NCBI RefSeq assembly: GCF_009296185.1
Contig: NZ_WBJR01000004.1
Coordinates: forward strand, 1-64,000
DNA: 64,000 nucleotides
Direction of reading: 5' to 3'
Source: Hydrogenovibrio sp. JE_KL2
GTDB lineage: Bacteria > Pseudomonadota > Gammaproteobacteria > Thiomicrospirales > Thiomicrospiraceae
Shown piece after piece: positions 18,610-64,000 of the stretch. The translations under genes were made by a program, and so were the position numbers. The notes beneath the pieces are model-generated. The model did no database searches and was not told the origin of the DNA. It worked only from the letters and a program-made list of their open reading frames with translations. How positions within the stretch are numbered: position 1 is the stretch's first letter; each line of letters starts with the position of its first letter.

Positions 18610-19868
18610 AGCCCACTCTCCGTCACTGGCGGGCAAACCACACCACTTGGAACATTCACGACGCGCTCGGCAAAAAATTCGGTATGCGTCATATCACCAC
18701 ACAATTCATTTTGATAAATATCAAGACGATGCATCGGTGTCCACAAAGGTCTGGTTTGTAAATTAGCACCATTGAAATCGGATAAGAAGGCATCTCTGTC
18801 TTCACATGAATTCAGTACACAAGCGTTCAGCCAGTAGTTTGGTAGATTGTCAGGAAAGTTTTGACGATAATCCGCGCCAAAATCTACTAGGTTGGGGGTA
18901 TCAGAAGTTTGTGTACCCTCAATCCACTCTTGATATTGCAACGCCAATTGATGTTTTTCAGCCAAGAAACTTGGCAGCTTTTTCATCTGTGCCACGCCCA
19001 GTGCGGCATTGAGGTTTGGCATACGCAGGTTGTAACCGATTTCATCATGCTCAAACAACCATTGATGCGGAATTTTTGCCGTGGTGCTGAGGTGCTTGGC
19101 GTGCGTGGCAACATCAGGTTTATTGGTCACCAGCATGCCACCACCACCAGTGGTAATGACTTTATTGCCGTTGAAGCTGAACACGCCGACATCGCCAAAC
19201 GTGCCGGTATGCATGCCGTTGACGAATGAGCCCAGGCTTTCGGCAGCGTCTTCAACCACCTTAATGCCATGTTCGTGACAGAGCGAAACGACTTGCTCTA
19301 TCTCCATGGGAAAGCCCAGGGTATGCATCGGCGCACAAGCGGAAATAAGGCGATGCGAAGCCTTATGAAAACATTTACCGTTTTTTTGGTAGGTTTGCGT
19401 GTTGAGAAACGCTGCCAGAGCGTCTGCGCTCAACCCCATGGTTTTGGGAGAAACATCGACAAACACAGGATCAGCGCCCAACATTTTAATGGCATTCGGC
19501 GTGGCGACAAAGGTCAGTGATTGCGTCAGCACCAAGTCTCCCGCTTTCACCCCTACTACTTTTAGACCAAGAAACAATCCCATGGTGCCATTAACGACAG
19601 CTACCGCATGTTTGGCACCAGTAAAGTCGGCAATCTGTTCTTCAAACGCACCGACAAACTCGCCCACCGACGATACAAAAGTGGAATCGATGCAGGCGTT
19701 GAGCAGTTCTTTTTCGGTTTTATCAAAGCACGGCGCGTGTAATGGAACGAAATCGGACTCGGCAACCTGATAATGGTTGCGAATGGCATTGGCAAGACTT
19801 TGCCAGGTGTCAGACTGAACTTCAGACCGAGCTTTTGAAGTGTCATTTTTCAAATTGTCCGCCGTCAT
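18606..19868 (-). CDS. legC: PLP-dependent UDP-4-keto-sugar aminotransferase (DegT/DnrJ family)
   Basis: About 420 aa. It transfers an amino group to C4 of the 4-keto-6-deoxy sugar produced by LegB. The PLP-binding lysine is in DVGVFSFNGNKVITTGGGGML; VVEDAAESLGS holds the Asp that contacts the pyridine nitrogen. AVAVVNGTMGLFLGL is the N-terminal substrate loop. The GTG at 19880 is possible, but the ATG at 19868 has ribosome site GGTGAG at 11 bases. It lies 40 bases after legB. A 19-bp motif copy is embedded as PNLVDF. Confidence 0.9.
   Translation of the reverse strand: MTADNLKNDTSKARSEVQSDTWQSLANAIRNHYQVAESDFVPLHAPCFDKTEKELLNACIDSTFVSSVGEFVGAFEEQIADFTGAKHAVAVVNGTMGLFLGLKVVGVKAGDLVLTQSLTFVATPNAIKMLGADPVFVDVSPKTMGLSADALAAFLNTQTYQKNGKCFHKASHRLISACAPMHTLGFPMEIEQVVSLCHEHGIKVVEDAAESLGSFVNGMHTGTFGDVGVFSFNGNKVITTGGGGMLVTNKPDVATHAKHLSTTAKIPHQWLFEHDEIGYNLRMPNLNAALGVAQMKKLPSFLAEKHQLALQYQEWIEGTQTSDTPNLVDFGADYRQNFPDNLPNYWLNACVLNSCEDRDAFLSDFNGANLQTRPLWTPMHRLDIYQNELCGDMTHTEFFAERVVNVPSGVVCPPVTESGL
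18879..18897 (+). repeat. 19-bp interspersed motif, copy 5
   Basis: AAAATCTACTAGGTTGGGG, one C-to-T mismatch. Lies within legC, encoding PNLVDF on the minus strand. Confidence 0.85.
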
Positions 19869-45452: not shown

Positions 45453-46907
45453 TTAAACCGCTATCTTATGAAGAGGCATGCTTTGCTCTGTCTGTTGCAC
45501 AAAACGCTTAGCATTCTGGATGCGCTCACGCACCTTGACGACTTCCCCCACCACCAACAGTGCCGGTGGTTTAATCGCTTGCTTGGCGATGGTTTCCGTC
45601 AACTTACCAAGAGAACTCACCGTCACCTTCTGATCAACACGCGTACCACGTTCGATAATCGCTGCTGGCGTATCTGGATTCATGCCGTGCGCAATCAAAC
45701 CTGCTTGGATTTTTGGTGCATTCTTGATTCCCATATAGAAAACCATGGTGTCACCAGAATGTGCCAATCGACCATAATCTATAGCACCTCCCCCTTCTTG
45801 CTGATGCCCGGTCACCAACGCCACTGACTGCGAAAACTCACGATGCGTCAAAGGGAAATCCGCATAGGCAGCACACCCTGCCGCCGCAGTAATGCCGGGC
45901 ACCACTTGATAAGCCACCCCAGCTTTCGCCAAAACTTCGATCTCTTCTCCGCCGCGCCCGAAGATATAAGGGTCTCCCCCTTTCAAACGCGCCACCTTTT
46001 TGCCTTGCTTGGCATACTCAACCAACATGCGGCAAATGTCTTCTTGCGGTACTGCGTGATGTTTGGATTTTTTACCGACATAAACGCGCTCAGCTTCTCG
46101 ACGCGCCATGTCAACAATCTCTGGAGAAACCAAACGGTCATACAACACCACATCCGCCTGTTGCAACAATCTCTGTGCCTTGAAGGTCATTAATTCAGGA
46201 TCCCCCGGCCCTGCACCGATCACATAGACTTCACCCGCCGCAGCCTCTTCAAAGCTGTCTGCCTGCTCAAGTTTTTTCTCCAGCATAGCTTCTGCCTCAC
46301 CGTCTAATCCATGCACGGCTTTATCGATAAACAAGCCATCCAGCAAACTTTCCCAAAATACCTTACGACCCTCAATGGAAGCTATCGCAGCTTTAACCTT
46401 GCCGCGATAACGTCCGACTAAATCTGTCAATCGACCAAACCCATGAGGAATCATCGCTTCCAATTTGGCTTTCATCACTCTCGCCAACACCGGAGAACGA
46501 CCGCCGGTTGAAATCGCAATGGTCATCGGCGCTCTATCGACAATCGCCGGTAGAATGAAGTCGCAGTATTCAGTTTGATCCGCCACATTCACGGGAATAC
46601 CGGTTGCCTGACAATACTCATAAACCGCAATATTCACCGCTTGATTATCGGTTGCGGAAATCACCAGTTTCGGCAACTGCGCACCGAACACTTCTGCCAT
46701 CACCTTCGGACTAAAAACACCTTGATGCCAAGTCACTTTGTTTTGGTTCAAAAAAGACTGCATCTCAGACTTTAAGGTTGGCGCAATCACCGTTACCTGT
46801 GCACCGGATTGAATAAACAAATCCGCTTTGCGCGCTGCCACCACACCACCACCAACAATCAGGCAAGGCTGCTGTTTAATATTCATGAAAATCGGTAAGT
46901 AATCCAT
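45453..46907 (-). CDS. cysG: Siroheme synthase CysG (fused)
   Basis: A 484-aa trifunctional enzyme. The N-terminal dehydrogenase/ferrochelatase domain has LIVGGGVVAARKADLFIQSG and STGGRSPVLARVMKAKLE. The C-terminal SAM uroporphyrinogen methyltransferase domain has YVIGAGPGDPELMTFKAQRL, RLKGGDPYIFGRGGEE and VVPGITAAAGCAAYADFPLT. It supplies siroheme to NirB, encoded upstream in the same locus. Twenty-one bases separate it from nasA. Confidence 0.96.
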   Translation of the reverse strand: MDYLPIFMNIKQQPCLIVGGGVVAARKADLFIQSGAQVTVIAPTLKSEMQSFLNQNKVTWHQGVFSPKVMAEVFGAQLPKLVISATDNQAVNIAVYEYCQATGIPVNVADQTEYCDFILPAIVDRAPMTIAISTGGRSPVLARVMKAKLEAMIPHGFGRLTDLVGRYRGKVKAAIASIEGRKVFWESLLDGLFIDKAVHGLDGEAEAMLEKKLEQADSFEEAAAGEVYVIGAGPGDPELMTFKAQRLLQQADVVLYDRLVSPEIVDMARREAERVYVGKKSKHHAVPQEDICRMLVEYAKQGKKVARLKGGDPYIFGRGGEEIEVLAKAGVAYQVVPGITAAAGCAAYADFPLTHREFSQSVALVTGHQQEGGGAIDYGRLAHSGDTMVFYMGIKNAPKIQAGLIAHGMNPDTPAAIIERGTRVDQKVTVSSLGKLTETIAKQAIKPPALLVVGEVVKVRERIQNAKRFVQQTEQSMPLHKIAV

Positions 46908-49738: not shown

Positions 49739-49803
49739 TGTTCAAATTTTCCTTTGGCATCCGTTCCGCGCCTCTTTTCAAAATTTCAGAAGCCCTAAAA
49801 CGC

Positions 49804-49847
49804 AAAAAGGCCCACCTGGCCTTTCGACCAAGTGAGCCTCATAACTC
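49804..49847 (-). ncRNA. NasT-type antiterminator leader of nasA
   Basis: On the minus strand GAGT-TATGAG-GCTC (49834-49847) forms a stem with a six-base loop having G at position 4. Its 3' arm is the start of an intrinsic terminator, GGCTCACTTGG pairing with CCAGGTGGGCC and followed by five T (A-run 49804-49808). The two structures exclude each other, the layout of ANTAR-controlled leaders such as nasF of Klebsiella. Loop position 1 is U here instead of the usual A. Confidence 0.75.
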
Positions 49848-49870
49848 AACTATTAACTATGTTTAATATT

Positions 49871-57729: not shown

Positions 57730-57844
57730 TTCCATTTCCTTTAGGGTTGTTCCACATGTCTTGCCTGATTCGCCTATAAGACGCCGCTGTCTTACGCTCG
57801 TCCGTTTTCATTAATTCAGAGCATTCAAACCATGAAAAAAAACC

Positions 57845-57907
57845 AAAAAAAAACGCCCACAGAATCCGTCAATGTTCCATAACGAGATTCTGTGAGCGTC
57901 TATACTC
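57845..57907 (-). ncRNA. NasT-type antiterminator leader of nrtA operon
   Basis: Minus strand GAGT-ATAGAC-GCTC (57894-57907), a stem with hexaloop having A1 and G4 as in known ANTAR targets. The 3' arm overlaps the 5' arm of an intrinsic terminator (ACGCTCACAGAATC with GATTCTGTGGGCGT, one G-U) followed by nine T. NasT binding would favour the small hairpin and let transcription proceed to nrtA-nirD. Confidence 0.85.
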
Positions 57908-57930
57908 TAAATTAATTTTGATTCTTAATT

Positions 57931-58032: not shown

Positions 58033-58054
58033 TGCACCTAAACATGCACCAAAA
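58033..58054 (-). promoter_or_regulatory. NtrC-like box upstream of nrtA
   Basis: Minus strand TTTTGGTGCA (58045-58054) followed by a second GGTGCA 12 bases on (58033-58038). It is 100 bases upstream of the -24 GG. The same TTTTGGTGCA occurs upstream of three sister leaders. Confidence 0.5.
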
Positions 58055-58103: not shown

Positions 58104-59831
58104 CTACTTAATCAACAAATACAGCGTTGATAAAAAGAGCACAAACGAAACCCCTTTCCAAAAAAGGACAGGGTTACGTTCCATTAAAGGTGCTCGCGTT
58201 TTGTTTAAAAATGCCAGGTTGGGGTGTCGTAAATCGAAGATGAATTCCGATATTTCACGGTATCTTTTCAATGGGTCTGGTTGTAGTGCTTTGCGCAAAG
58301 CTTCATCTATCCAAACAGGGGTATCACGATCTTCTTCCAGCACGGAACGATAGCTCAGTTTTCGCTGGTCAGCTCGAGTACGAATCTTCGCAACCTGCGT
58401 ACCATAAGGCAAGCGCCCTGAAAGCAATTGATAAGCAATAACCGCCAGAGAAAATTGATCGGACCTTGTAGACCCCGTTTCACCAACAAAATATTCCGGC
58501 GCAGTGTATTGTGCAGTACCCAACAAATCTGGCTGATTCAAAGGGTTGGCAATTTCCGTTAGACCTGCGACACGTGTCGAACCAAAGTCGATGATTTTCA
58601 CCGTACCACTTTGGTCAATCATGATGTTGTTGGGGCGAATATCCTGATGCAGCATTTCCAAACGATGAAATGCCCGCAATCCCTTAGCGATTTGTTCGAT
58701 GATTTTGCGCACCGTTTCGACATCCGGCTTAGGGTTGTCCAACATCCACTGAGCAAGCGTTTGCCCTTCGATATACTCGGTGGTGATATAAAGGTAATGT
58801 CGTTTGCGGCTTTGAACACTGGGCTTTAAGACATTTGCATGGTCAATACGCCGCGCAATCCACTCTTCCAGCAAAAAACGTTGCAAGTAAGCGGCATCTT
58901 CACGCAAATCTATCGACGGGACTTTTAACACGACCTGTTGCTGAGTTTCCAAGTCTCGCGCCAGGTAAACATGGCTACGGCTGCTGTTATGAATATCGCG
59001 GAGGATTTCATAGCCGTCAAACTGCATTCTCGCTTCCAACCTTGGCGGAAACGGCAATGCCGTCATTTGCTGGTAGACTTCGCTCTCATCATAGTCCGGC
59101 AAGGTTTCTACTCGAAGCAGTTGCACCGTGAGATTGTCGTCACTGCCCTGATGGTAGGCTTCGTCTGCGATGGCTTTTGCGGCTATATCCAAGTCGGCGA
59201 CATATTGTCGAATCAACTCGACCATCTTGGTTTCATTCACAAATTCGTAAATGCCGTCTGTCGCCAGCACAAAGACATCTCCAATATCCAAGCGATGGGT
59301 TTGATAATCGACTTCCAACTGGTCGTTCACACCCAATGCACGGCTGAGAAAACTTTCTTCTTTTGACAACCAAGTGCGATGGTCTTCGGTCAGTTGTTCG
59401 AGGCGGTTTTGTGATGCAGCAATGCGATAGATGCGGCTGTCTCCGGCATGAAAGAGATGAGCGGTCGTTGATTTGAGCACCACACTGCTGAAGGTGCAGA
59501 CATAACCTTTATCTTTGTTGTAACGATATTGGCTACGGCGGGTTTGTGCAAACAGCCAGGAGTTGACCGCCAGCAAGACACTTTGCGCTGAGGTTTTCAC
59601 ACTCCAAGCTTCAGACGTACTGAAGTAATCGGTTAAAAATCCTTTAACAGCGGTCTCGCTCGCAACCTGGCTCACTTGACTGCTACTGATACCATCTGCC
59701 AAGGCAATGGCAATACCTTTGGAACTTAATAAGGGTTCTTCAGGAATCAAACTTCCATAAAAATCCTGATTAAGTGCCTTCCGACCTTTGTCAGAATATT
59801 GTCCGATAGAAACGTTTAGTTGCTTTGTCAT
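58104..59831 (-). CDS. PP2C phosphatase-serine/threonine kinase fusion with C-terminal TM
   Basis: A 575-aa bifunctional protein. Residues ~1-240 are a PP2C-type phosphatase (IALADGISSSQVSQVASETA with metal-binding Asp-Gly; VLATDGIYEF). Residues ~270-535 are a Hanks-type kinase: VVLKVPS Lys, HQDIRPNNIMI catalytic loop and IIDFGSTR metal loop. The glycine loop (LRDIHNSSRSHVYLA) is poor. The C-terminus FWKGVSFVLFLSTLYLLI is a single membrane span. A kinase gene also sits in the Pseudomonas nas locus, so it is likely part of the module, possibly acting on the FNT channel or nitrate transport. It follows FNT by 55 bases on the same transcript. Confidence 0.87.
   Translation of the reverse strand: MTKQLNVSIGQYSDKGRKALNQDFYGSLIPEEPLLSSKGIAIALADGISSSQVSQVASETAVKGFLTDYFSTSEAWSVKTSAQSVLLAVNSWLFAQTRRSQYRYNKDKGYVCTFSSVVLKSTTAHLFHAGDSRIYRIAASQNRLEQLTEDHRTWLSKEESFLSRALGVNDQLEVDYQTHRLDIGDVFVLATDGIYEFVNETKMVELIRQYVADLDIAAKAIADEAYHQGSDDNLTVQLLRVETLPDYDESEVYQQMTALPFPPRLEARMQFDGYEILRDIHNSSRSHVYLARDLETQQQVVLKVPSIDLREDAAYLQRFLLEEWIARRIDHANVLKPSVQSRKRHYLYITTEYIEGQTLAQWMLDNPKPDVETVRKIIEQIAKGLRAFHRLEMLHQDIRPNNIMIDQSGTVKIIDFGSTRVAGLTEIANPLNQPDLLGTAQYTAPEYFVGETGSTRSDQFSLAVIAYQLLSGRLPYGTQVAKIRTRADQRKLSYRSVLEEDRDTPVWIDEALRKALQPDPLKRYREISEFIFDLRHPNLAFLNKTRAPLMERNPVLFWKGVSFVLFLSTLYLLIK
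58207..58224 (+). repeat. 19-bp interspersed motif, copy 12 (partial)
   Basis: AAAAATGCCAGGTTGGGG: the core TGCCAGGTTGGGG is perfect but the TC of the left part is altered. Inside the PP2C-kinase gene, encoding PNLAF on the minus strand. Confidence 0.75.
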
Positions 59832-60699: not shown

Positions 60700-60822
60700 A
60701 GAGAACTCCTCAATAAAACTATGTAATCATGAAATACACCTCAGTCTGTTGGTGTTAACGTCCTTGCTTTGCCCCAACATAACTAGAGAACCAGTTCGAG
60801 TGATGGATGTTCTAAAAAATCC

Positions 60823-60884
60823 AAAAAAAAACGCCCACAGAATCACCGCGGAAAACCCGAGGCGTTCTGTGAGCGTCTACACTC
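60823..60884 (-). ncRNA. NasT-type antiterminator leader of nirC-kinase unit
   Basis: Minus strand GAGT-GTAGAC-GCTC (60871-60884), hexaloop with G4 (position 1 is G). The overlapping terminator pairs ACGCTCACAGAA with TTCTGTGGGCGT and is followed by nine T (A-run 60823-60831). Nearly identical in stem sequence to the nrtA leader. Confidence 0.8.
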
Positions 60885-60905
60885 TAAACTAATTTCAAAG
60901 TATTA

Positions 60906-61010: not shown

Positions 61011-62171
61011 TCAGTTCTGCACCAAAATAAAACGGTCTTCGCCAATCTCAACGCCATCCAGCAGCCAAGGTTCGGCATGCACCCCTTCTGCTTTGCGATT
61101 CACCGAAGGCAACGCCACGCCTAGCTTGGAGACCACCGAACGATAGACATCCGTGAGGTACACTTCTTCTGCCATAGCTTGAATATCCACCTCTTCGGGA
61201 ATCTGATGCCAACGCTTCATCTGGGTCAGTATCCACTCGGCATGCGACTGCCAAGGAAAGTTGGCGAGATGTTTAAAAGGGGAAAAGAAATTCGGAATAT
61301 TGCGGCAGGTCGAGCAACTTGGGTTACACACTTCACCGTAAAACGCATTTTTGATGGACTCTCTCGGCGCACCAACATATTGTGGTGATGACAGATAATC
61401 ACTCAAGGTTTCGCGATTCTCGACCTGATCCAACCACTCGCTGGCGCGATACAAAGCGCGGATAATCTTTTCATGAGTTTCGGCATTTTGCTCTGCCCAG
61501 TCTTTACGAACACCCAGCACTTTGTCTGGCGCGTTGTTCCAAATCTCATAACCGGTAATCAGGGTCACACCTACTTTACGCTTTACGGCATGCGTGTTCC
61601 AAGGCTCGCCGACACAGTAGGCATCTATCAGATTCTCTTCCAACGCTTGCACCATGCTTGGTGGTGGCACTACGGTAAGATGAACATCTTTATCGGCATC
61701 AATGCCGCCTTCCGCAAGCCAATATCGCAACAGATATTGATGCATGGAAAACGGAAACACCACCGCAAAACGCAGTTTTGGCAATCCTTTCTCCGCTCTG
61801 GCATTAATCACCTTTTTCAAAACACAAGCGCTCTTCTCAGGCTTCAAGACCAGTTGAGATTCATATTCACTCATTTCATCATAGAGCGCATTGGAAACAC
61901 TGATGGCGTTACCATTCACCGCAAAAGAATAGGCTGTTACCAACGGACGTTTGATGCCGCCCAACCCAAGCGTGGAAGACATGAGCATGGGGGCCAACAT
62001 GTGCGCGGCATCGTACTCGCCAAACACCAGCTTGTCACGGATGTTCGACCAGGACACTTCCCGCTGTAGTTCAACGTTCAAGCCCTGTTCTTCAAAAAAA
62101 CCTTGTTCCTTGGCAACAATCAATGAGGCACAATCATTCAGTGGTATAAATCCGATCTTTATCTTATCCAT
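61011..62171 (-). CDS. nasS: Nitrate/nitrite sensor protein NasS
   Basis: A 386-aa cytoplasmic NrtA/CmpA-like periplasmic-fold protein with no signal peptide (starts MDKIKIGFIPLNDCASLIVA). It shares AYCVGEPWNTHAVKRKVG with NrtA. In Azotobacter and Paracoccus NasS binds NasT and holds it inactive until nitrate or nitrite binds. The 16-base gap to nasT shows cotranscription. The last codons overlap the NtrC-like box that would serve the downstream nirC unit (FILVQN at the C-terminus contains TTTTGGTGCA). Confidence 0.93.
   Translation of the reverse strand: MDKIKIGFIPLNDCASLIVAKEQGFFEEQGLNVELQREVSWSNIRDKLVFGEYDAAHMLAPMLMSSTLGLGGIKRPLVTAYSFAVNGNAISVSNALYDEMSEYESQLVLKPEKSACVLKKVINARAEKGLPKLRFAVVFPFSMHQYLLRYWLAEGGIDADKDVHLTVVPPPSMVQALEENLIDAYCVGEPWNTHAVKRKVGVTLITGYEIWNNAPDKVLGVRKDWAEQNAETHEKIIRALYRASEWLDQVENRETLSDYLSSPQYVGAPRESIKNAFYGEVCNPSCSTCRNIPNFFSPFKHLANFPWQSHAEWILTQMKRWHQIPEEVDIQAMAEEVYLTDVYRSVVSKLGVALPSVNRKAEGVHAEPWLLDGVEIGEDRFILVQN
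61018..61027 (-). promoter_or_regulatory. NtrC-like box upstream of nirC, inside the nasS 3' end
   Basis: Minus strand TTTTGGTGCA, 98 bases upstream of the nirC -24 element. It encodes ILVQ, so it lies within coding sequence. Confidence 0.45.
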
Positions 62172-62187: not shown

Positions 62188-62775
62188 CTATTCCAGCACA
62201 CTGATAATCGTTTCAGCCACTTCATATAATTTCTGATTACTGTCCATTGAGCGTTTGCGTATCGCTTCATAAGCCTCTTGTTCGGTCACGCCTTTTTGCT
62301 GCATCAACAAGCGTTTCGCCTTGTCGATCAACTTGTTCTGTTCCAACTCGGACTTGGTTTGTTTCAACTCGTCTTTCAGCGCCTGATACTCTCTGAAACG
62401 TGCAATCGCCACACTCATGATTGGCTTTACACGCTCCATATCCACACCTTTGACGATGTAACCACTCACCCCTGACTTAATCGCTTCCTGAATGACGGTT
62501 TCATTGTCTTCGTCGGCGAACATTACCACCGGCAAGGGGTTGTGCTCATTGAGTAGATACATACTTTCGAGAATATCCCGATCCGGCGATTCGGTGTCAA
62601 TCACAATCATATCCGGCATAATCTGCGCAACCTTCGCCAGCAGGCTTGGGCCGGGTTCGACACGAGCGATCACCTCATAGCCATGATCCAACAACGCCTG
62701 CGACAAGAGTGCAGAACGCCCAGAGTCGTTATCCACGAGCATCACTTTGATGGTTTCAAACTTGGTCTTAGGCAT
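62188..62775 (-). CDS. nasT: ANTAR-domain antiterminator NasT
   Basis: A 195-aa response-regulator-type protein. The receiver domain ~1-125 has phospho-site Asp in MIVIDTESPD and Lys in YIVKGVD; the phosphorylation role is dispensable in NasT relatives. A coiled linker (ALKDELKQTKSELEQNK) leads to the C-terminal ANTAR domain (DKAKRLLMQQKGVTEQEAYE then AIRKRSMDSNQKLYEVAETI). It binds hexaloop hairpins in leader RNA to prevent termination. The window shows five such leaders, one of them before nasT itself. Confidence 0.95.
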   Translation of the reverse strand: MPKTKFETIKVMLVDNDSGRSALLSQALLDHGYEVIARVEPGPSLLAKVAQIMPDMIVIDTESPDRDILESMYLLNEHNPLPVVMFADEDNETVIQEAIKSGVSGYIVKGVDMERVKPIMSVAIARFREYQALKDELKQTKSELEQNKLIDKAKRLLMQQKGVTEQEAYEAIRKRSMDSNQKLYEVAETIISVLE

Positions 62776-63033: not shown

Positions 63034-63054
63034 TTTTGGTGCAAGCCAACACCA
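63034..63054. promoter_or_regulatory. Shared NtrC-like site between nasT and the PAS receptor gene
   Basis: TTTTGGTGCA (63034-63043), with TGGTG and CACCA as inverted arms. It lies midway between the two divergent GG-N10-TC promoters (about 97 and 88 bases away), the position expected for a shared enhancer. Confidence 0.5.
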
Positions 63055-63128
63055 TTTAGAAAATAAGCAATGCCTTATTTTCTACCCAAAAACCACTAAA
63101 CGTTTGATTTATATAACGTTACCTATCT

Positions 63129-63145
63129 ATGGTTTGGAAATTTCT
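63129..63145 (+). promoter_or_regulatory. Sigma-54-like promoter of PAS receptor gene
   Basis: ATGG-TTTGGAAATT-TCT on the plus strand; GG at 63131 and TC at 63143, ten bases apart. Confidence 0.4.
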
Positions 63146-63162
63146 TTAACTAATCTATGTTT

Positions 63163-63242
63163 GAGTAAAGACGCTCACAAAAAGCTCCCTCCTTTTTTAG
63201 CGAAACCGTAATGAACAGGGTCGATTTTTGTGGGCGTTTTTT
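63163..63242 (+). ncRNA. NasT-type antiterminator leader of PAS receptor gene
   Basis: GAGT-AAAGAC-GCTC (63163-63176) forms a hexaloop with A1 and G4. The overlapping terminator pairs ACGCTCACAAAAA (63171-63183) with TTTTTGTGGGCGT (63225-63237), with one G-U, and then TTTTTT. The stem sequence is identical to those of the nas leaders although this unit is transcribed the other way. Confidence 0.85.
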
Positions 63243-63316
63243 ATGGTCGTTCATTTGCACAATGATTGTGAAAATAAATCATCAAAGAAAGTTGATAGAA
63301 CAAGGATTCAAGCGTT

Positions 63317-64000
63317 ATGGATAAACACGAACAAGAAAAAGATTTCAAACACCTCGGCACACTTGTTATCAAAATGGACTTTTCAGGAGCCTTTCTGGAA
63401 ATCAATGATGCTTTCGTAGAAGCAAGCGAGTTTACGCGCACTCAACTCGCTGGAGAAAATTTTTCTCAACTACTTCATGAAGACACGCCAACCAAGCTGA
63501 CCAAAGATTTATGGCAAACGTTAAAATCTGGAAAGCCTTGGGTTCATATCCTGAAAATCAAATGTAACCATGACAAATACCTTTGGGCGGAAGCCAATAT
63601 GGCGCCCGTACTGGAAAACAACAAAATCGTGGGGGCACTTGCCGTACTCAAACCGCTATCCAACCAAACGCTGGTAACCTCGGCACAAGACGCTGCCGCA
63701 CACTATAAAAAGATACGCCGCAGTTCCGTGCGCAACGGTATTTTGCTGACGCCTGCGCAAAACCTATGCCTGTTCCACAGAATTCATCCTATCAACCTGA
63801 TGGTCGCCAGTATTGCATTGATTGGCGTTTTGGCGACACTACAGCAGTTTCACATCATAAATCTACCAGGTTGGGGTATCCCGGCAATCAGCGCATTTCT
63901 GTTTTTCTACGCGCTTGCGGGGCGAAAATACGCCTTCAAACGTTTAGGCAAAGCAAAAGTGCTTATCGACAAGATGCGCCAAGCCGACTTTAACGGACAG
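63317..64000 (+). CDS. PAS-domain membrane receptor, Aer-like (partial)
   Basis: Open to the right edge, 228 codons seen. A PAS domain covers ~10-115 (LGTLVIKMDFSGAFLEINDA, then VGALAVLKPL). A hydrophobic hairpin at ~165-210 (MVASIALIGVLATL, then ISAFLFFYALAG) gives two membrane passes with a very short periplasmic loop. The sequence then continues into a positively charged region where a HAMP would follow. This is the plan of Aer, an energy-taxis receptor. A receptor kinase or cyclase is possible since the signalling part is missing. ATG at 63317 has AAGGA nearby. The leader places it under NasT. A 19-bp motif copy is embedded (NLPGWG). Confidence 0.65.
   Translation, partial: MDKHEQEKDFKHLGTLVIKMDFSGAFLEINDAFVEASEFTRTQLAGENFSQLLHEDTPTKLTKDLWQTLKSGKPWVHILKIKCNHDKYLWAEANMAPVLENNKIVGALAVLKPLSNQTLVTSAQDAAAHYKKIRRSSVRNGILLTPAQNLCLFHRIHPINLMVASIALIGVLATLQQFHIINLPGWGIPAISAFLFFYALAGRKYAFKRLGKAKVLIDKMRQADFNGQ
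63858..63876 (+). repeat. 19-bp interspersed motif, copy 14
   Basis: TAAATCTACCAGGTTGGGG, one mismatch at the first base. In frame in the PAS gene as NLPGWG. Confidence 0.88.

Follow-up and report, generated by a model that had tools for sequence, protein, structure and literature searches.

A Hydrogenovibrio chemoreceptor gene with a nitrate-assimilation leader: probable NtrC- and NasT-gated synthesis of an Aer-derived receptor

Introduction

The nas leaders controlled by NasS/NasT in Paracoccus (PMC3795266, PMC5424462) and Bradyrhizobium (PMC6759348), and the NasR-nasF system of Klebsiella, share with the locus described here a hexaloop hairpin overlapping a terminator and, as proposed for this locus, a nitrate-released ANTAR protein and a nitrogen-control promoter. 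In the absence of bound nitrate or nitrite, NasT is held by NasS (PMC3795266). The model drawn for eut, amiE and nasF has an upstream hexaloop, P1 (PMC3369931); the minimal ANTAR binding motif has been redefined as one hexaloop, antitermination being held to use both (PMC8934654). As for the protein, one of the closest described receptors is E. coli Aer, whose FAD is contacted by H53, R57, M69, W70, N85 and R115 (PMC9668731).

Here we describe a chemoreceptor gene in a 64,000-nucleotide stretch (G000:C9:1-64000, called the window throughout) of the 2.44 Mb genome of a sulfur-oxidising bacterium. We propose that synthesis of this one receptor is probably gated by NtrC and NasT within the nitrate-assimilation regulon, and that its N-terminal PAS domain (PAS1) is probably not a flavin domain.

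Results

The gene opens with an ATG at 63317 (63317..64000, + strand, within the window), preceded by a probable ribosome-binding site recognised by its sequence, AAGGA (63302..63306, +), and continues to G000:C9:65953, giving a protein of 878 aa whose closest named relatives are from Thiomicrorhabdus species. The sequence-only reading had seen an Aer-like receptor of energy-taxis layout in its first part, and the sequence to the right of 64000 bears out the chemoreceptor output with an MCP signalling domain (MCPsignal, PF00015, residues 537-690, 3.2e-40, Pfam) and a HAMP-like region. The Aer layout of PAS, transmembrane pair, HAMP and MCP is thus found in full: an Aer-like N-terminal PAS (63353..63655, +; residues 13-113, Pfam) is followed by two transmembrane segments joined by a very short loop, without a periplasmic sensor domain (63791..63928, +; residues ~159-204, by inspection of the translation). 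A second PAS and the HAMP-like region match the Aer2 PAS-HAMP structure 3vol, the HAMP region being recognised solely by alignment to the Aer2 and Tsr structures. The signalling region aligns with Tsr gap-free through the hairpin tip, and the signalling hairpin aligns gap-free with 7 other receptors of the genome. Among curated models the closest is Vibrio Aer2, with a score far below its cut-off. At the Aer2 PAS histidine region, presumably haem-ligating, the aligned stretch is shortened, and the histidines are absent in this clade and present in G006 and G011. Two other Aer-type receptors of the genome have the full flavin motif intact. A flagellar cluster elsewhere in the genome encodes FlhA, CheY, CheZ, CheA, CheW, CheR and CheB. 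Another CheA is encoded next to CheD. A scan of viral contigs with the receptor gave no relative.

The divergent neighbour of the receptor gene is nasT (62188..62775, -), encoding a response-regulator receiver with an ANTAR domain, and next to it lies nasS (61011..62171, -), an NMT1-like nitrate-sensor protein named by homology and position. The covariance model described below identifies leaders of a formate/nitrite transporter gene of the focA type (60821..60890, -), of the nitrate ABC transporter gene nrtA (57843..57913, -) and, in diverged form, of the assimilatory nitrate reductase gene nasA (49798..49853, -); the last has the hairpin GAGT-TATGAG-GCTC and a canonical GG-N10-GC. NtrC is encoded in the genome (659.9 bits; cut-off 558.6). 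Between focA and nrtA we observed a gene in which a PP2C phosphatase is fused to a Ser/Thr kinase (58104-59831, -); in G033 a homologue adjoins a nitrate transporter (L140). The genome encodes another NasT-like ANTAR protein, ANTAR2, whose receiver domain is weak. Its gene heads a conserved run (L004:6011-11148, G000:C1) that continues with an EAL-domain protein, a membrane protein, a HAD hydrolase and a conserved protein; neither the membrane protein nor the last one matches Pfam. The run is also found at L024, L070, L072, L136, L138 and L141, and the receptor lies inside it in 4 relatives; in this genome the ANTAR2-EAL pair at C1 is without it. The same locus L004 contains a reverse-transcriptase-like ORF (L004:1103-2641, -) with a long stretch of GT repeats that would be translated as repeated Gly-Thr.

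Alignment of the nasT-receptor intergenic region from three species (this genome and its sisters G003 and G004) leaves three conserved islands, namely the promoter box, the -24/-12 element and the hairpin with its terminator stem; between them the DNA has diverged, terminator loop included. The box, TTTTGGTGCA (63034..63043, +), is an NtrC-like half-site and putative NtrC target, kept in G003 and G004, about 120 nt before the predicted transcription start. It recurs at nrtA (58045-58054, -) and focA (61018-61027, -), and the window has 4 exact copies against 0.5 expected from shuffling; the fourth, at 45711, falls within coding sequence and was set aside. The sigma54-like element TGG-TTTGGAAATT-TC (63130..63144, +) is conserved in both sisters, and in its GG-N10-TC part (63131-63144) the -12 position reads TC instead of GC. 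The ANTAR-type hexaloop hairpin GAGU-AAAGAC-GCUC, with A at loop position 1 and G at position 4 (63163..63176, +), is identical in G003 and G004. It shares the 5' arm of an intrinsic terminator (63171..63242, +; recognised by stem covariation and fold energies), the arms of which are ACGCTCAC (63171-63178) and GTGGGCGT (63230-63237), with a T-run to 63242. The two structures have bases in common and exclude each other. The terminator fold is calculated at -28.8 kcal/mol, against -16.7 with the hexaloop hairpin enforced, and is the predicted default fold of the receptor leader. The pattern GAGNNNAGACGCTCAC has three exact copies in the genome and three each in G003 and G004, always at nrtA, focA and the receptor gene; the reversed control gave 0. 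The earlier claim that the gene has the promoter box, GG-N10-TC element and ANTAR leader of the nas operons therefore holds, all being found as at nrtA and focA, although 'near-identical' describes the hairpin and terminator stem and not the terminator loop, which differs. A loose hairpin match at 19416-19431 was rejected, since it looks like coding sequence and lacks a terminator.

A covariance model built from 15 leaders was searched against 63 family genomes (E<=0.01); widening from family to order gave the same 63 genomes. It gave 37 matches in 21 of them, 15 of the 37 being training leaders or near copies and the rest, in more distant genomes, independent. At the receptor leader the match spans 63157-63247 (E=1.9e-7). 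The receptor follows 3 of the 37 matches, and nitrate or nitrite genes follow the other 34: nrtA, focA or nasA and, once, an MFS nitrate/nitrite transporter gene, by inspection. The terminator stem covaries across the 15 leaders, with 8 of 14 pairs changed on both sides and a score reached in 0 of 500 shuffles. Loop position 4 is G in 34/34 leaders; at position 1, 32 of the 34 carry a purine, 16 an A and 16 a G. A sigma54-like element, in several cases a canonical GG-N10-GC, stands 32-40 nt before the hairpin in 30/34, and NtrC-like half-sites lie within 220 nt before 27/34. Rfam gave no matching family at gathering score; its permissive match, snoU61 (E=3.5), is a chance hit.

We looked for a second, upstream hexaloop (P1) at the receptor leader and found none, a result that depends on the predicted transcription start. 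Among 34 leaders, the nas leaders included, only 2 had such a hexaloop, which is not common to the set. With transcription starting some 12 nt past the -12 position, P1 would not fit. The nas leaders of the family thus look like a single-hexaloop form, as far as these predicted starts hold.

The N-terminal PAS matches the Aer PAS structure ungapped over 100 residues, and on sequence grounds the receptor is a descendant of an Aer-type FAD receptor. At the positions of H53, R57, M69, W70, N85 and R115 it has F, L, L, W, I and L, with similar residues in G003 and G004. H53, R57, N85 and R115 are all replaced in the three leader-bearing species; W70, N34, H58 and D60 remain. Against Aer, the PAS of the G050-type orthologue scores 130 bits and that of this genome 63. 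Given these lost contacts, the receptor of the leader-bearing species probably reports something other than the FAD redox state. The altered PAS is, to judge from its substitutions, under purifying selection and not in decay (dN/dS ~0.05 in comparison with G004 and 0.11 with G003; synonymous sites are nearly saturated).

Orthologues are found among the nitrate genes of three further relatives, so the tie between receptor and nitrate genes does not depend on one leader. The order is ANTAR2-nasT-nasS-nrtA-nrtB-nrtC-TM-EAL-receptor in G025, nasT-nasS-nrtABC-EAL-receptor in G065 (with one 18-nt gap and one overlap) and nasT-nasS-leader-nrtABC-receptor in G033, where nrtC and the receptor are 126 nt apart with a hairpin in between. 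From gene order and spacing we infer that the receptor is cotranscribed with nrtABC in G025, G065 and G033. In 9 other genomes the orthologue is not nas-linked: the order is ANTAR2-EAL-receptor in G050, G026, G051 and G035 and EAL-receptor in G009, and the gene stands alone in G055, G046, G030 and G053. R57 is lost in 5 of the 6 nas-linked orthologues (G000, G003, G004, G025 and G033) and kept in G065, which has all flavin contacts intact. Outside nas clusters, all 14 sequences (9 orthologues and 5 paralogues) retain it. A formal test on the tree gives 4 changes for nas linkage; the R57 losses, read by eye, fall on 3 separate branches. This correlation, noticed post hoc and in few lineages, is no more than suggestive. 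G009 encodes a NIT-ANTAR protein of the NasR type (L071:6574-7764) instead of NasT/NasS, and no ANTAR2. Its nrtA has the same leader form, which indicates that the leader outlived a change of regulator. In G065 another chemoreceptor-like gene, distinct from the orthologue, stands immediately upstream of the nasA leader (L135:17333-19834, -), placing a further receptor beside a nas cluster.

Discussion

Membership of the receptor gene in the nitrate regulon, as the sequence-only reading proposed, is well supported by the leader kept in three species, by the covariance-model matches, 37/37 of which lie at nitrate/nitrite genes or the receptor, and by the orthologues inside nas clusters. According to the mechanism that we favour, NtrC and sigma54 would start transcription near 63156 under nitrogen limitation. 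Without nitrate, NasS would hold NasT and the leader transcript would terminate close to 63242. Nitrate or nitrite would free NasT to bind the hexaloop hairpin and exclude the terminator, so that the receptor is made and then probably joins the chemoreceptor array. The leader anatomy is read directly from the DNA; the action of NasT on it is modelled on the NasT of Paracoccus and Bradyrhizobium. Synthesis of the receptor would thus probably be confined to nitrogen limitation with nitrate available. Several points stand against this mechanism: one hexaloop fits where published ANTAR antitermination uses two, a second ANTAR protein is encoded in the genome, the -12 reads TC, 9 genomes have the orthologue outside nas clusters, and in G033 a hairpin precedes the receptor. 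The earlier phrase 'nitrate-gated motility' was an overstatement, as the genome has several receptors, and its flagellar and Che genes lie elsewhere; nitrate-gated synthesis of one receptor is the reading that the data favour. The energy-taxis label fits in layout and ancestry and finds no support in function, the flavin contacts being lost in the leader-bearing species.

The regulator that reads the leader could be ANTAR2, encoded at C1 beside the EAL-domain gene, and the signal another one, such as a c-di-GMP-linked state. The ANTAR2-EAL-receptor operon of 4 relatives indeed makes ANTAR2 and the receptor old partners. However, those operons have no leader matching the covariance model, receptor and nas genes have the same leader, nasT directly adjoins the receptor gene, and G009 keeps the same leader at nrtA with NIT-ANTAR and with neither NasT nor ANTAR2. 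We consider a role of ANTAR2 here improbable. It is barely credible that the leader is a passive, functionless copy of a nas promoter: the move of the gene next to nasT in this lineage makes promoter capture plausible, but the hairpin and terminator stem have survived in three species amid changes in the terminator loop and flanks, and the model scores of the receptor leaders are comparable to those of nas leaders.

Two further alternatives concern what the protein does once it is made. The receptor might be nitrate-regulated and not steer swimming, serving instead the second Che pathway or a surface or c-di-GMP behaviour, as the CheA beside CheD, the link of orthologues to an EAL gene and the closeness to the Vibrio Aer2 model, even if far below its cut-off, would allow. 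The gap-free signalling hairpin shared with 7 other receptors and the CheA, CheW, CheY and CheZ of the flagellar cluster argue for the swimming pathway, and we judge this alternative unlikely, though of some weight. It is quite unlikely, in our view, that the protein is still an energy-taxis receptor whose PAS binds flavin by other contacts, nitrate setting only its amount. The retained W70, N34, H58 and D60, the Aer-like layout and the nas-linked G065 orthologue with intact contacts speak for it; the replacement of H53, R57, N85 and R115 in three species and the drop of the Aer match from 130 to 63 bits speak against it. NtrC- and NasT-gated synthesis of a probably non-flavin receptor thus remains our preferred reading.

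It is tempting to go further, and we do so tentatively, holding the following possible but somewhat doubtful. The nitrate regulon may have captured an Aer-type receptor several times in this family, with a tendency of capture to dismantle the flavin site. The result could be a new sensory type that steers by the state of nitrate assimilation and is made only when the pathway runs, and one ANTAR hexaloop could be enough for antitermination. The recurrence of nas linkage and of flavin-contact loss opens a directly testable question of sensor evolution, and leaders with a single hexaloop put the current ANTAR model to the test.

With E. coli Aer the receptor shares the homologous N-terminal PAS and the combination of a cytoplasmic PAS, transmembrane pair and MCP domain; it differs in the four replaced flavin contacts, an extra Aer2-like PAS and its regulation. 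With Pseudomonas and Vibrio Aer2 it shares the second PAS and HAMP-like region (3vol), whereas the haem-histidine stretch is shortened here and Aer2 has no N-terminal Aer-type PAS. The amount of P. aeruginosa McpN depends on nitrate, as proposed for this receptor, but McpN binds nitrate with a periplasmic PilJ domain, and its transcript falls with nitrate, opposite in sign to our proposal (PMC6381276). A putative ANTAR RNA element at an MCP start codon appears in Fig. S3 of Ramesh 2012, where, as far as that figure goes, it is a candidate only and overlaps the ribosome site, not a terminator (PMC3369931). NtrC-dependent or nitrogen-induced MCPs of P. stutzeri (PMC8443478) and P. putida (PMC7801951) have the nitrogen-limitation control that is predicted for this gene, with no ANTAR leader or nitrate gate described for them. 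The earlier remark that no NasT-controlled chemoreceptor is known to have been described agrees with our literature search on NasT and chemoreceptors, which returned only unrelated papers and left most subscription journals outside its coverage. The known targets of NasT systems are metabolic genes, with no chemotaxis gene mentioned in two studies of NasT, and their leaders use two hexaloops where one fits here. If our proposal is true, this would apparently be the first chemoreceptor gated by NasS/NasT RNA antitermination, linking assimilation to steering.
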